Part shown: positions 28,456-49,750 of the stretch, piece by piece
Layout: every line of letters starts with the position of its first letter
Numbering within the stretch: the first letter of the stretch is position 1
Assembly (NCBI GenBank): GCA_903823025.1
Contig: CAIJRK010000036.1
Coordinates: 1 to 50,860 of the forward strand
Length of the DNA: 50,860 nt
Reading direction: 5' to 3'
Origin: an uncultured beta proteobacterium
GTDB lineage: Bacteria > Pseudomonadota > Gammaproteobacteria > Burkholderiales > Burkholderiaceae_C
The notes under the pieces: model-generated
Told to the model about the DNA's origin: nothing
What the model saw: the letters and a program-made list of their open reading frames with translations, nothing else
Database searches by the model: none
Made by a program: the position numbers and the translations under genes

Positions 28456-29880
28456 ATGCATATTCATATTCTTGGTATTTGCGGCACCTTCATGGGAGGT
28501 CTGGCCGCGTTGGCGCGTGAATCCGGTCACAAAGTCACCGGCTGCGACACCGGCGTTTATCCGCCCATGAGCGACCAGTTGCGCGCGCTTGGCATTGAAC
28601 TGATTGAGGGGTTTGGGGCTGATCAGTTAGCTCTTCAACCGGATTTATTTGTCGTGGGCAACGTCGTCAGCCGCGTTCACCTGGCCGATGGCACGCCGAA
28701 GTTTGCGTTGATGGAAGCCATTCTGGACGCCGGGCTGCCTTACACCAGCGGCCCGCAATGGCTGGCAGAACATGTGCTGCAAGGCCGACACGTCATTGCT
28801 GTCGCCGGCACGCACGGCAAAACCACCACCACCGCCATGATTGCCTGGATACTGGAACATGCCGGCTTGCAACCCGGTTTTCTGGTGGGCGGTGTGCCGA
28901 TGAATTTTGAGGTGTCTGCCCGATTGGGTGGCCCGGCGGTGCCGCCTCTTGAACGCCCGTTGTTTGTGATTGAAGCTGACGAATATGACACCGCGTTTTT
29001 TGACAAGCGCAGCAAATTTGTGCATTACCGCCCCCGTACCGCCGTACTGAACAACCTGGAGTTTGACCACGCTGACATCTTTGATGATCTGGCGGCGATT
29101 GAGCGCCAATTTCATCACCTGGTGCGAACTGTGCCTGGCCAAGGCCCGCATGGATCGGGTCGCATCGTGGTCAATGGGCTGGAGGAAAGTCTGACGCGGG
29201 TGCTTCATGCGGGTTGCTGGAGCGAGGTACGCAGCTTTGGCTCGGCGGTGAGCGACTTCACGGCGGCAGGCGAACCGCATGACTTTGATGTGTTGCACCA
29301 AGGCCAAAACGTGGGCCATGTGGCATGGTCACTGAGCGGTACACACAACCAACTCAACGCCTTGGCCGCCATTGCCGCCGCCCAACACGTAGGCGTTTCA
29401 CCCGATGTTGCGGCCAACGCTTTGGGGCGCTTTGAAAACGTGAAACGACGCATGGAAGTGCGCGGCACGGTCAAACGCACGAACGGCAACATCACCGTTT
29501 ACGACGATTTTGCCCATCACCCAACGGCCATCCGGACGACGGTGGATGGACTTAAGCGCCGAATCAGGCTGGATGAACGCATCTTGGCAGTCTTTGAGCC
29601 ACGTTCCAACACGATGAAACTTGGCGCGATGAAAGCCCAGTTGCCGTGGAGTTTGGCGCAGGCTGATCTGGCGTTTTGTCACAGTGCCGGTCTCGGTTGG
29701 GATGCCCGCGAGGCTTTAGCCCCAATGGGTGACAAAGCGCAAGTTGCCGACACGCTTGACGAGCTGGTCGCGCAGGTCACGCGCCACGCCCGGCCCGGTG
29801 ACCATATCGTTTGCATGAGCAATGGCAGCTTTGGTGGCGTTCACCTCAAGCTGCTGCAAGCCCTGAACGCTAAATGTTAA
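28456..29880 (+). CDS. mpl: UDP-MurNAc:L-Ala-gamma-D-Glu-meso-DAP ligase
   Basis: 474 residues. Mur-ligase P-loop AVAGTHGKTTTTAM lies near residue 115, after an N-terminal Rossmann domain (HIHILGICGTFMGGLA). Other conserved points are EADEYDTAFFDKRSKF and YDDFAHHPTAI. Mpl joins the recycled murein tripeptide to UDP-MurNAc in the cytoplasm, the step that complements the AmpD amidase also in this window. Its TAA stop shares the bases TTAA with the stop of convergent aroG (29877-29880). Confidence 0.95.
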   Translation: MHIHILGICGTFMGGLAALARESGHKVTGCDTGVYPPMSDQLRALGIELIEGFGADQLALQPDLFVVGNVVSRVHLADGTPKFALMEAILDAGLPYTSGPQWLAEHVLQGRHVIAVAGTHGKTTTTAMIAWILEHAGLQPGFLVGGVPMNFEVSARLGGPAVPPLERPLFVIEADEYDTAFFDKRSKFVHYRPRTAVLNNLEFDHADIFDDLAAIERQFHHLVRTVPGQGPHGSGRIVVNGLEESLTRVLHAGCWSEVRSFGSAVSDFTAAGEPHDFDVLHQGQNVGHVAWSLSGTHNQLNALAAIAAAQHVGVSPDVAANALGRFENVKRRMEVRGTVKRTNGNITVYDDFAHHPTAIRTTVDGLKRRIRLDERILAVFEPRSNTMKLGAMKAQLPWSLAQADLAFCHSAGLGWDAREALAPMGDKAQVADTLDELVAQVTRHARPGDHIVCMSNGSFGGVHLKLLQALNAKC

Positions 29881-31004
29881 CGTGCCCGACGTGCCTTGAC
29901 GGCTTGCGACAACACTTCTAGTGTCTCGCACGAATCATCCCAGCCCAGGCAAGCATCGGTGATGCTTTTGCCATATTCCAGTTGGCTGGCATCGTCCTTG
30001 CCCGGTGTGAACTTCTGGGCACCCGCTTGCAAGTGACTCTCCACCATCACGCCGAAGATGCGGGTGGAACCGCCCGCAATTTGCGCGGCAATGTCGCTTG
30101 CCACGTCCCGTTGTTTTTCAAACTTTTTGCTGCTGTTGGCGTGGCTGCAATCCACCATTAAAGAGGCTGGCAGTTTGGCTTTTTCCAAATCTTTGCAAGC
30201 GGCGGCCACACTCTCTGCGTCATAGTTGGGCGTTTTGCCGCCCCGCAGAATGACGTGACAGTCTTTGTTGCCATGGGTTTGCACAATCGCCACTTGGCCA
30301 TTTTTATGCACTGACAAAAAGTGATGCCCATCGGCGGCGGCTTGAATCGCATCGGTGGCGATTTTGATGTTGCCGTCGGTGCCGTTCTTGAAGCCAATCG
30401 GCGCTGACAGACCCGACGCCAGTTCGCGGTGAACCTGACTCTCAGTGGTGCGGGCACCAATGGCACCCCACGAAATCAAGTCACCCAAGTATTGGGGCGA
30501 AATCACGTCCAAAAATTCACTGCCAGCGGGCAAACCCAAGCGGTTGATTTCAATCAGCAACTGGCGTGCAATGCGCAGGCCTTCGTCAATGCGATAGGTT
30601 TCATCCAGGTAAGGATCGTTGATCAGACCTTTCCAGCCGACCGTGGTGCGTGGTTTCTCGAAATACACACGCATCACGATTTCCAACGTATCGGCGTATT
30701 TCTCGCGCTGCACCTTGAGTTGGCGGGCGTAGTCCAAAGCAGCGGCAGGGTCGTGAATAGAACAGGGGCCAATCACCACCAGCAGGCGGTCTTCTTTGCC
30801 CCGCATGATGCTGTGGATATGGCGCCGGGTCGCGCTGATCAGCGACTCAATGGCGGTGCCTTGAATCGGAAAGAAACGGATTAAATGTTCGGGAGGTGGC
30901 AGCACAGTGATGTCCTTGATGCGTTCGTCGTCGGTCTTGCTGGTGCGTTCAATGGGACTCGCATACCAGGGATCGGAACTGGCAACAGTGGTTTTAGCAT
31001 TCAT
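29877..31004 (-). CDS. aroG: DAHP synthase (3-deoxy-7-phosphoheptulonate synthase), AroG type
   Basis: 375 residues, class I DAHP synthase. Conserved blocks: VVIGPCSIHDPAAALDYA, MRVYFEKPRTTVGWKG, and the phosphate/metal region SWGAIGARTTESQVHRE. It joins PEP and erythrose-4-P, the first step of aromatic amino acid synthesis; AroE of the same pathway is in this window at 37583. Which amino acid inhibits it cannot be told. TAGGAG at 31011-31016 is the ribosome site, and GGAG-C-CTCC around it can fold back. A leader peptide and terminator upstream indicate transcription attenuation. Confidence 0.96.
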   Translation of the reverse strand: MNAKTTVASSDPWYASPIERTSKTDDERIKDITVLPPPEHLIRFFPIQGTAIESLISATRRHIHSIMRGKEDRLLVVIGPCSIHDPAAALDYARQLKVQREKYADTLEIVMRVYFEKPRTTVGWKGLINDPYLDETYRIDEGLRIARQLLIEINRLGLPAGSEFLDVISPQYLGDLISWGAIGARTTESQVHRELASGLSAPIGFKNGTDGNIKIATDAIQAAADGHHFLSVHKNGQVAIVQTHGNKDCHVILRGGKTPNYDAESVAAACKDLEKAKLPASLMVDCSHANSSKKFEKQRDVASDIAAQIAGGSTRIFGVMVESHLQAGAQKFTPGKDDASQLEYGKSITDACLGWDDSCETLEVLSQAVKARRAR

Positions 31005-31045
31005 GGGAGGCTCCTAGGTCAATTAAATTAAAGTCAAAAAAGCAT

Positions 31046-31076
31046 AAAAAAACCGCCGGGGGTGCCGGCGGTTTTT
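31046..31076 (-). terminator. Attenuator hairpin between leader peptide and aroG
   Basis: On the minus strand AAAAACCGCCGG pairs with CCGGCGGTTTTT around a CACCC loop, 12 bp, then runs into T (complement of 31046-31052). It stands 42 bp before the aroG start and 31 bp after the leader-peptide stop. ACCGCCG of its left arm (31066-31072) is an exact complement of CGGCGGT (31119-31125) inside the leader ORF, a 7-bp antiterminator alternative. It may also terminate read-through from tldD. Confidence 0.9.
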
Positions 31077-31106
31077 GGAAGTCAGGACGTTTTCTTTTAG
31101 GTACGT

Positions 31107-31175
31107 TCAGAACTCTCTACCGCCGCAGGCGCTTGAGAACCAAAAATAACCAAAGTAAAAACGTGCTGAATTCAT
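31107..31175 (-). CDS. Aromatic-rich leader peptide of aroG (attenuator)
   Basis: A 22-codon ORF, starting MNSARFYFGYFWFSSA and ending in Phe. Residues 6-13 are Phe-Tyr-Phe-Gly-Tyr-Phe-Trp-Phe: seven of eight are aromatic, five Phe in the whole peptide, two Tyr and one Trp. That composition is strongly non-random and is the hallmark of a leader that senses charged aromatic tRNAs. Stalling in this run would leave CGGCGGT (31119-31125) free to pair with the left arm of the downstream terminator; full translation would let the terminator form. CGCC/GGCG inside the ORF provides the competing first hairpin. No clear Shine-Dalgarno precedes the ATG, and the promoter is uncertain (a CTGACA and TATGCT pair with 19-bp spacing is the best guess), so the 5' UTR may be very short. 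Confidence 0.82.
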   Translation of the reverse strand: MNSARFYFGYFWFSSACGGREF

Positions 31176-31214
31176 GGAGTTAAATGTAGCATAGACCCAG
31201 TCGTCAGCCTGATG

Positions 31215-32675
31215 TCAGGCCGTGCCGCCTACCGTCAAACCATCAATCCGCAAAGTGGGTTGACCCACACCAACCGGCACGCTCTGGCCCTCTTTGCCGC
31301 AGGTGCCAACGCCACTGTCGAGCTTCATATCGTTGCCGATCATGCTGACGCGGGTTAAGGCATCCGGGCCATTGCCGACGATAGTGGCACCTTTAACGGG
31401 ATACAAAATCTTGCCGTTTTCGACCCAATACGCTTCGCTGGCCGAGAACACAAACTTGCCTGATGTGATGTCCACTTGCCCACCGCCAAAGTTGGTGGCG
31501 TACAAGCCCTTTTTGATACTGGCCACAATTTCTTCAGGTGATTTATCGCCCGCCAACATATAGGTGTTGGTCATGCGCGGCATGGGAATAGAGGCGTAGC
31601 TTTCACGGCGGCCATTGCCCGTGGGTTTGACGCCCATCAGACGCGCGTTCATGGCGTCTTGGATGTAGCCTTTCAAAATGCCGTCTTCAATCAGCACATT
31701 GCGCTGACTGGTGTTGCCTTCGTCGTCCACATTGAGCGAACCCCGGCGATCAGGCAGCGTGCCGTCATCAAGCACTGTCACGCCTTTGGCTGCAACCCGC
31801 TGACCGATACGCCCGGAAAATGCGCTCGAACCCTTGCGGTTGAAGTCACCTTCCAGGCCGTGACCAATCGCCTCATGCAACAAAATACCGGGCCAGCCTG
31901 GGCCAAGCACCACCGTCATTTCACCAGCGGGTGCCGGACGCGCCTCCAGATTGGTGAGCGCCGCTTTGACCGCCTCATCGACATATTGCGTCATGATGGC
32001 CTCATCAAAATAAGCCAGGCCAAAACGCCCGCCGCCTCCGGCTGAACCGACTTCACGACGGCCTTTTTGCTCGGCGATCACCGTCACGCTCAGGCGCACC
32101 AGCGGGCGTACATCAGCGGCTAACGTGCCATCGGCCCGCGCCACCATCACCACATCGTATTCACTGGCTAACCCGGCCATGACTTGCGCCACACGCGGGT
32201 CTTTAGCCCGTGCCATTTTTTCGATTTTCTCCAGCAGCTTGACCTTGGCCGCGCTATCGAGCGTAGTAATCGGATCCAGCCCTTGATACAAGGAGCGAGC
32301 ACCCGCTATTTTTTGAGTCGCCGTTTTGACACGCTTCGACTGGGTCGCAGCAGATATGGTACGCACCGTGCGCGCCGCATCCAGCAGCGACGCTTCGGAA
32401 ATGTCGTCCGAGTAGGCAAACGCGGTTTTCTCACCGCTCACCGCCCGCACGCCAACGCCTTGGTCAATGCTGAACGAGCCGGTTTTAACAATGCCTTCTT
32501 CCAGACTCCAGCCCTCTGAGCGGGTGTACTGAAAATAAAGGTCGGCTTCATCAACTTGATGGGCTTTTATTTCTGCCAAAGCGCGCGTCAAATGGGACTC
32601 ATCCAGACCAAACGGGGTGAGCAGCAGGGACTTGGCAATAGCCAAGCGTTCAAGGGTAGGTTCGCGAGAAATCAT
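31215..32675 (-). CDS. tldD: Metalloprotease TldD
   Basis: 486 residues from ATG 32675; a GTG at 32699 would add eight residues. The zinc-protease motif HEAIGH is present in ILLHEAIGHGLEGDF. TldD acts with PmbA (TldE) as a heterodimer that trims unfolded or modified peptides such as microcin precursors and CcdA. PmbA is not in the window. The gene is upstream of the aroG leader in the same direction and 69 bp downstream of rodA. Confidence 0.95.
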   Translation of the reverse strand: MISREPTLERLAIAKSLLLTPFGLDESHLTRALAEIKAHQVDEADLYFQYTRSEGWSLEEGIVKTGSFSIDQGVGVRAVSGEKTAFAYSDDISEASLLDAARTVRTISAATQSKRVKTATQKIAGARSLYQGLDPITTLDSAAKVKLLEKIEKMARAKDPRVAQVMAGLASEYDVVMVARADGTLAADVRPLVRLSVTVIAEQKGRREVGSAGGGGRFGLAYFDEAIMTQYVDEAVKAALTNLEARPAPAGEMTVVLGPGWPGILLHEAIGHGLEGDFNRKGSSAFSGRIGQRVAAKGVTVLDDGTLPDRRGSLNVDDEGNTSQRNVLIEDGILKGYIQDAMNARLMGVKPTGNGRRESYASIPMPRMTNTYMLAGDKSPEEIVASIKKGLYATNFGGGQVDITSGKFVFSASEAYWVENGKILYPVKGATIVGNGPDALTRVSMIGNDMKLDSGVGTCGKEGQSVPVGVGQPTLRIDGLTVGGTA

Positions 32676-49446: not shown

Positions 49447-49644
49447 ATGAATTCAAGTTCTTATGCAAAAGAACGAGATGGCAAGATTTCGGGCTGGAGC
49501 GTGAAGGGCAACGGGTTGCAGCTGCTCCAAGGTGGAGGAGCGTCAAAATCACGGGTGACACCGGACTCGACTGGGCAACCCCGCTGCCATTGCACAAAAT
49601 GCGACAGGCCGGTGGCTTTGCGACCCCGTCTTTCGAGCGGGTGA
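49447..49644 (+). CDS. Possible small Cys-rich protein
   Basis: 65 residues from ATG 49447, with AAAGGA 7 bp upstream. It has a short motif CHCTKCDRP near the C terminus, like a zinc knuckle, in an otherwise polar Gly/Ser-rich sequence. No homologue recognised. It sits in the gene-poor strip between the hybrid kinase and the mobile region, and codon use is plausible. The overlapping frame at 49365-49652 looks less protein-like. May be a chance ORF. Confidence 0.3.
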   Translation: MNSSSYAKERDGKISGWSVKGNGLQLLQGGGASKSRVTPDSTGQPRCHCTKCDRPVALRPRLSSG

Positions 49645-49750
49645 GCTGTTAACAAAATTTAACAAAATCAGATTTTAAGTGTTAATTATTTATTAACAAA
49701 CATATAAAACACTGAAAAATAAAATTTGATTTATTCATCGAAATTGCGCG
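49645..49750. other. AT-rich strip with short direct and inverted repeats
   Basis: No gene is seen. TTAACAAAAT occurs twice and TTAACAAACA once, and TGTTAAT-5 bp-ATTAACA is a perfect inverted repeat at about 49680-49698. Base composition is far more AT than the flanking genes, suggesting acquired DNA or a regulatory/insertion hot spot. Confidence 0.6.

Follow-up and report, generated by a model that had tools for sequence, protein, structure and literature searches.

A conserved aromatic leader peptide and a predicted attenuator in front of aroG-type DAHP synthase genes of proteobacteria

The DAHP synthase gene aroG in the window, by which we mean the whole stretch of 50,860 nucleotides analysed here, is preceded by a leader that is very probably a ribosome-mediated attenuator; judged from sequence comparison, it would sense how much Phe-, Tyr- and Trp-tRNA is charged and would open aroG when one of the three runs low. 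Ribosome-mediated attenuation is a classic class of mechanism, and DAHP synthase governs how much enters the synthesis of every aromatic amino acid. A preliminary description of this DNA had reported a 22-codon open reading frame with Phe-Tyr-Phe-Gly-Tyr-Phe-Trp-Phe, a 12-bp terminator with a T-run and a DAHP synthase gene downstream, and all three are present. The features are as follows, in the order in which they would be transcribed.

31183-31191, minus strand: extended -10 element TGCTACATT, read in the sequence; the transcript is predicted to begin 0-2 nt ahead of the leader ATG.
31107-31175, minus strand: leader peptide ORF of 22 codons with an ATG start, MNSARFYFGYFWFSSACGGREF, from ORF reading.
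31137-31160, minus strand: putative control codons 6-13, Phe-Tyr-Phe-Gly-Tyr-Phe-Trp-Phe, from the ORF translation and stall modelling.
31128-31144, minus strand: segment 1, the predicted 5' arm of the protector hairpin, with the outer arm TTCTC at 31135-31139, from folds.
31119-31125, minus strand: segment 2, CGGCGGT, predicted to pair with segment 1 (protector) or segment 3 (antiterminator), from complementarity and covariation.
31065-31076, minus strand: segment 3, the left terminator arm, AAAAACCGCCGG, from the terminator scan and covariation.
31048-31059, minus strand: segment 4, the right terminator arm, CCGGCGGTTTTT, running into the T-run, from the terminator scan.
31011-31015, minus strand: Shine-Dalgarno sequence of aroG, AGGAG, 6 nt before the aroG ATG, read in the sequence.
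29877-31004, minus strand: aroG, a class I DAHP synthase of 375 aa, from NCBIfam profile matches.

In the mechanism that we propose, the first transcribed nucleotide would be that of the leader ATG or lie no more than about 2 nt from it, and a ribosome would load without a Shine-Dalgarno sequence. With ample aromatic tRNAs, the ribosome would reach the UGA stop codon and cover segment 2, segments 3 and 4 would pair, and transcription would end about 45 nt before aroG. In short supply, the ribosome would stall in F-Y-F-G-Y-F-W-F while sitting on segment 1; with segment 4 not yet made, segment 2 could then pair with segment 3, no terminator would form, and aroG would be transcribed. If the ORF is not translated, segment 2 would be taken up by hairpin 1:2, which would favour termination. 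Judged by eye, the terminator (12 bp with a 5-nt loop) is likely to be more stable than the 2:3 helix (7 bp with a long loop), therefore antitermination would have to be kinetic.

The product of the downstream gene scored above the cut-offs of TIGR00034 (aroFGH), NF009395 and NF009396 (Trp-sensitive AroH), and its score of 546.5 against the AroG equivalog model NF006723 lies below the cut-off of 568. The gene is a class I DAHP synthase gene, for which we keep the label aroG from the preliminary description as a working name. A second DAHP synthase gene, 55% identical, is located elsewhere in the same genome. At its 3' end aroG (minus strand) converges with mpl (plus strand, 28456-29880), the stop ends of the two genes overlapping by 4 nt at 29877-29880 with no intergenic space. 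Elsewhere in the window, a c-di-GMP-I riboswitch aptamer is found at 49571-49657 on the minus strand (62 bits).

Short reading frames as rich in aromatic residues as the leader are rare. Among ORFs of up to 60 codons on both strands of the window (50.9 kb), the leader is the only one with at least 6 aromatic residues per 11 codons; three reach at least 5 per 11 codons, and a terminator was found at the leader only. Both strands of 466 kb of DNA from 80 loci of relatives yielded four more ORFs with 7 aromatic residues in 11, and the one of these that has a terminator is the aroG leader of locus L013 itself.

The preliminary description had proposed that the peptide should be looked for in relatives, and there it was found to be widely conserved. 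The sample comprised 80 named aroG loci and 100 searched genomes of the same family, 99 of which gave a match; the upstream region of the main aroG was taken from 89 of these 99, the remainder being partial or lower-ranked matches. Together with 79 of the named loci (L015 was too short), the window's own aroG and the paralogue L002, this gave 170 upstream regions, and an aromatic leader was present in 150 of them: in 87 of the 89 family genomes, one per genus, in 62 of the 79 named loci and in front of the window's own aroG, and absent from L002. These 150 leader loci are the 149 analysed for terminators plus L013, and all occurrence and covariation counts given here are of sequences, not of independent events. 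Named carriers include Variovorax, Polaromonas, Acidovorax, Burkholderia, Paraburkholderia, Massilia, Rugamonas and Xanthomonas. The regions counted as lacking the leader are the paralogue L002, L026 (a weaker variant containing His), L030, L032, L033, L038, L039, L047, L049, L050, L053, L062, L065, L070, L078, L079, L080, L082, L150 and L169; three of these (L050, L062 and L078) had initially been flagged and were discounted as having no leader. No leader was seen in the upstream regions, read directly, of aroG from Cupriavidus (L038 and L039) or Polynucleobacter (L030, L032 and L033), and in these relatives the control seems to have been lost or replaced.

Further DAHP synthase genes were also inspected, and the leader was absent upstream of all 20; three of these regions passed a loose threshold of 4-5 aromatic residues, without a T-run, and for one locus (L174) the region comprised only 125 nt. 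The products of L173 and L174 are 63% identical to AroG and those of the other further genes 54-59%. In the loci checked, the leader goes with the aroG-type DAHP synthase gene and not with the paralogue.

We then considered which amino acids the leader is suited to report. In 143 non-redundant leaders, Phe occurs in 143, Tyr in 141 and Trp in 122, with all three in 120 and Trp absent from 21; the form with Phe, Tyr and Trp is typical, not universal. The first 17 residues contain on average 4.39 Phe, 1.67 Tyr and 0.87 Trp. His codons are found within the aromatic run upstream of aroG in L026 (RYHFWHFH) and L135 (RFYFWHFH). Phe is encoded by TTT in 64% of cases in the leaders versus 17% in the aroG genes, an excess that fits slow or unstructured control codons and could alternatively stem from pairing needs.

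The predominance of Phe leaves it possible, if on balance doubtful, that the attenuator answers in practice to Phe alone, or to Phe and Tyr, and that the Trp codon is incidental. The means above and the 21 leaders without Trp are in keeping with this, as is the aroR leader of Corynebacterium glutamicum (Phe-Tyr-Phe), for which Phe limitation is reported to be effective and Tyr limitation not (PMC11802643). The placement of Trp speaks against it. The four codons that end at the protector arm are Tyr in 41, Phe in 56, Trp in 45 and Phe in 45 of 59 aligned leaders; in 45 of these 59 it is Trp that directly precedes the protector arm; the switch window modelled below takes in 116 of 128 Trp codons; and leaders from a second class also contain Trp.

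The preliminary description had further claimed that CGGCGGT within the ORF is exactly complementary to the left arm of the terminator and that this gives a four-segment attenuator layout. Both statements hold, and the protector hairpin 1:2 was located in addition. CGGCGGT occupies nucleotides 51-57 of the ORF (31125-31119) and is the exact complement of ACCGCCG in the left arm, with seven contiguous Watson-Crick pairs. The terminator hairpin (31076-31048) has 12 bp, of which 7 are G-C pairs, a 5-nt loop and a T-run, and the 132-nt region has a folding energy of -50.3 kcal/mol (z -5.6), which none of 200 shuffles equalled. Across the leader loci, a terminator with a T-run was found in 149 of 149 with a relaxed scan and in 131 of 149 with a stricter one.

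For comparison between species, alignment A1 was assembled from 59 leaders of at most 80% mutual identity by the script's measure; it omits 18 listed loci with odd starts, weak terminators or too great a distance. In the outer protector helix TTCTC:GAGAG, which has two-sided changes, 92.5% of cells were paired, and in the terminator 97.0%. Helices 1:2 and 3:4 taken together were paired in 95.4% of cells, compared with 44-61% for slid structures, and they include 6 pairs with two-sided change versus 1.6 in shuffles (0 of 500 as high). For 2:3 there were 9 two-sided cells versus a mean of 2.4 in shuffles (0 of 500 as high), and slid versions reached 18-55%; the share of paired cells, 78.4%, is barely above the 77.2% of the shuffles, 4 of 500 of which were as high. 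The clearest exchange is at position 53:108 of a separate alignment of 142 sequences (L158 was left out), with G-C in 119, A-T in 6 and C-C in 16 (permutation p < 0.001). In the 6 of 142, a change from G to A in segment 2 goes together with a change from C to T in segment 3, and the G of segment 4 is kept as a wobble partner; the 16 C-C cases reflect either misalignment or a true mismatch. A comparable exchange was read in the sequence of L276.

Segment 2 can form at least 6 contiguous pairs with the left arm, G-U allowed, in 126 of 143 leaders. The match was equalled by at most 5 of 100 shuffled leaders in 111 of the 143 and by more than 5 in 32, a caveat to all pairing evidence here being that GC-rich leader sequences pair easily. 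Segment 2 occurs in three reading frames, in 50, 8 and 1 of 59 leaders, and it is therefore conserved at the RNA level. RNAalifold run on the alignment predicted the terminator alone and neither 1:2 nor 2:3, and the 1:2 segment by itself had no folding signal relative to mononucleotide shuffles (mean z -0.01, 0 of 143 below -2), so that the case for 1:2 is made by its pairing in different species. The covarying stems for which the preliminary description had looked to relatives are borne out in that compensatory changes occur in 1:2, 2:3 and 3:4, with a signal that is modest for 2:3. Not all three of these helices can form at once.

The hairpin could also be explained by the neighbouring gene. 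The end of tldD, which is on the same strand, lies at 31215, a distance of 39 nt upstream of the leader, and 81 of 119 leader loci have tldD in the flank that was fetched. The hairpin might be no more than the 3' terminator of this gene, with the aromatic ORF a chance frame. We consider this barely credible. Thirty-eight of the 119 loci have a leader without tldD in the flank, some of these flanks perhaps having been ended by the contig; the leader is kept in most upstream regions, its segments covary, and such ORFs are very rare in the background. The combination of a chance ORF and a tldD terminator was rejected on the tldD-less loci and the background rarity.

To return to attenuation, its prediction is that the position of a stalled ribosome decides which helix forms. 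We modelled this with the front edge of the ribosome 9 nt past the A-site codon and the free RNA folded up to and including segment 3. For the window RNA, the modelled probability of 2:3 pairing, P(2:3), is 0.84-0.98 with codons 6-13 in the A site, 0.83 with codon 14 and 0.30 with codon 15, and about 0 at codons 2-5, at codons 16-23 and without a ribosome; at codons 2-5 the left arm is half paired, its partner there not being segment 2. The high values at codons 6-14 coincide with the aromatic run at codons 6-13. Averaged over 143 leaders, P(2:3) is about 0.83-0.87 at the last aromatic codon and then falls to 0.53, 0.18 and 0.05 at the codons that follow; it is 0.64 seven codons before the last aromatic codon and 0.15 without a ribosome. 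The 3' edge of the switch window is sharp in these averages and the 5' edge is not, the latter being well defined for the window RNA. Over the 143 leaders, aromatic codons make up 63% of those within the switch window and 9% of those beyond it, and the result is similar with other front-edge offsets (57% and 12% at 6 nt, 65% and 10% at 12 nt). In the folding model, the control codons are placed such that a stalled ribosome would free the antiterminator.

The preliminary description had regarded the missing Shine-Dalgarno sequence and the possible near-leaderless start as an extra oddity. The Shine-Dalgarno sequence is indeed missing and the start is predicted to be leaderless, and both features are common to most relatives and hence not an oddity. 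No Shine-Dalgarno-like tetramer precedes the leader start in the window, unlike aroG, and among 143 leaders such a tetramer was found before the start in one. In 89 of 143 leaders, the motif TGNTANNNT has its end 6-8 nt ahead of the start, compared with 0.12 expected from its frequency further upstream, and an extended -10 element lies within 24 nt of the leader start in 100 of 143. A sigma-70 scan, which needs a -35 element, returned no promoter at the leader. Transcripts usually start about 7 nt past the -10 element, and from this and the spacing of the extended -10 element the leader ORF is predicted to lie at the 5' end of the RNA. The window leader thus has the sequence marks of a leaderless mRNA, with a -10 element directly upstream of the ATG and no Shine-Dalgarno sequence. 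A TGnTA extended -10 has been described upstream of mapped leaderless mRNAs in Bradyrhizobium japonicum (PMC4842269). Leaders of Burkholderia and Oxalobacteraceae have no extended -10 element next to the ATG, and several have a TATAA- or TATAG-like box further upstream; these leaders (e.g., L057 and L069) are not leaderless by sequence, yet they too are without a Shine-Dalgarno sequence. Several in these groups have a U- and A-rich stretch before the ATG.

A leaderless terminated transcript would also raise the question of action in trans. In Sinorhizobium meliloti, trpL/rnTrpL has an established leaderless leader-peptide ORF at the 5' end of its transcript and attenuates trpE(G) (PMC7298713, PMC10117765); it is a Trp leader for trpE(G), whereas in the window leaderlessness is predicted and the target is aroG. 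The aroG leader might similarly act through its peptide or the released 5' RNA, in the manner of peTrpL and rnTrpL, with cis attenuation secondary. Termination would leave a small leaderless mRNA of about 130 nt, similar in format to rnTrpL (PMC7298713). We regard this as very unlikely as the main function, in that the N- and C-termini of the peptide vary widely and segment 2 is kept in different frames. These two features indicate that codon supply and RNA pairing are conserved rather than the peptide sequence.

The distribution of the attenuator candidate beyond the family was surveyed with a covariance model, R1, built from the 59 leaders and run over whole genomes. In its own genome, R1 matched the leader at 101.8 bits, followed by 25.5 bits for the antisense of the same place and then 24.2 bits, with no further real match in that genome. 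Matches were found in 69 of 250 genomes of the order at E <= 0.01, where 13 candidates per genome were scored and a failure to find the leader is weak evidence, in 18 of 274 genomes of the class at E <= 0.01 and in 39 of 299 of the phylum at E <= 0.001; part of these matches was checked for gene context. Of the strong matches (E <= 1.5e-8) fetched from the scans of order and class, 31 in number, every one is immediately followed by aroG, three of them (G020, G087 and G088) belonging to the sample from which the alignment was drawn. None of the 17 weak matches fetched from these scans lies before aroG, a set that includes 2 matches from the own genome and 5 incomplete loci. Low-scoring matches without aroG (L228-L242, L194 and L196) were rejected.

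Of 20 further R1 stretches, 16 lie before aroG, including some from families that the phylum scan labels as lying outside this class, and so do 11 of another 16, six of whose places repeat the earlier set of 20. The leaders from outside the class, e.g., MITVATSYFWYFSYDSLLAAGGSRSI and MIHLTASFWYFYSSSLAAGGLRSI, have the same layout, and Trp occurs in them too; we infer that the other class is Alphaproteobacteria. Occurrence is patchy in two of these families, with matches in 6 of 81 and 6 of 61 genomes at E <= 0.001, of which 4 and 4 were confirmed before aroG. Matches rejected for want of aroG were L255-L258, L269, L271, L272, L277 and L278. Since L269 reached an E-value of 5.3e-6 without aroG, such an E-value does not prove membership. 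At L255 (G647), the match covers a leader, MQSYVIDNFWWSFWWS, and a terminator comes after it, while the stretch contains no aroG; this leader looks like a Trp leader.

In the window and in 18 more loci, none of the known Rfam leader families scored as high as its gathering threshold. The best Rfam match of the window region was RF01859 (Phe_leader), the pheA leader, over its full length (1-125) at 21 bits, below the gathering score of 55; its target gene differs from that in the window, and in 20 family loci it was not listed at E <= 1. Leaders that carry codons for several amino acids are familiar from branched-chain operons of the ilvGMEDA type, in which one ORF has codons for all the end products of a shared pathway. 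The two kinds are alike in carrying codons for more than one amino acid, Ile, Val and Leu there and Phe, Tyr and Trp here.

Attenuation of DAHP synthase genes has precedents. The aroR leader of C. glutamicum, located before aroF, is described as a ribosome-mediated attenuator of the DAHP synthase operon that raises transcription on Phe limitation and not on Tyr limitation (PMC11802643). Like the window leader, it places Phe and Tyr codons before a DAHP synthase gene; it comes from another phylum and has Phe-Tyr-Phe with no Trp mentioned, and the likeness is one of description. For two Vibrio species, including V. vulnificus, Table 7 of PMC1173090 lists, from Merino's web database, an attenuator predicted before a DAHP synthase-tyrA operon. 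This is likewise a prediction before a proteobacterial DAHP synthase gene, which differs in that the gene is that of a different isozyme and stands in an operon with tyrA; neither a leader peptide nor a structure is given in the entry. The motif uORFC-13-1 (PMC8632094) consists of a Phe-coding uORF and an intrinsic terminator predicted before aroF of Acholeplasma, with 24 representatives from Acholeplasma and unassigned environmental sequences. It shares with the window leader a predicted uORF and terminator before a DAHP synthase gene, and differs in having a ribosome-binding site and in that a single Phe codon is the minimum, with no run of Tyr and Trp described.

A combined aromatic leader on aroG had been called less familiar in the preliminary description. 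This needs to be divided, since attenuation of DAHP synthase genes is already known (reported in PMC11802643, predicted in PMC1173090), and the three-amino-acid form is indeed typical of the present leaders (Trp in 122 of 143). In the literature searched, whose coverage is incomplete, we found no report of this leader, and it may have been predicted elsewhere; in the main text of Naville and Gautheret 2010 (PMC2965389), the words DAHP, phosphoheptulonate and aromatic are absent. The unusual points are the codon block for three amino acids, the predicted leaderless start and the span over two proteobacterial classes.

Textbook control of DAHP synthase genes, by the repressors TyrR and TrpR, comes from enteric bacteria. 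For Burkholderiales, a Xanthomonas-type family of gammaproteobacteria and parts of a second class, the leader is a candidate control of the DAHP synthase step. It would be a natural sensor with the codons of three amino acids at defined places, and swapping these could show how an attenuator weighs its inputs. It could also address whether leaderless initiation suits attenuation, with ribosome and polymerase starting together, and it bears on strain engineering for aromatic compounds. Going further, we suggest tentatively, with confidence falling just short of even, that one leaderless attenuator reading three tRNAs across alpha-, beta- and gammaproteobacteria, absent from Rfam, may be the main expression control on the entry to the shikimate pathway and may also release a small leaderless mRNA. 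If this is true, starvation for any single aromatic amino acid would open the gate.
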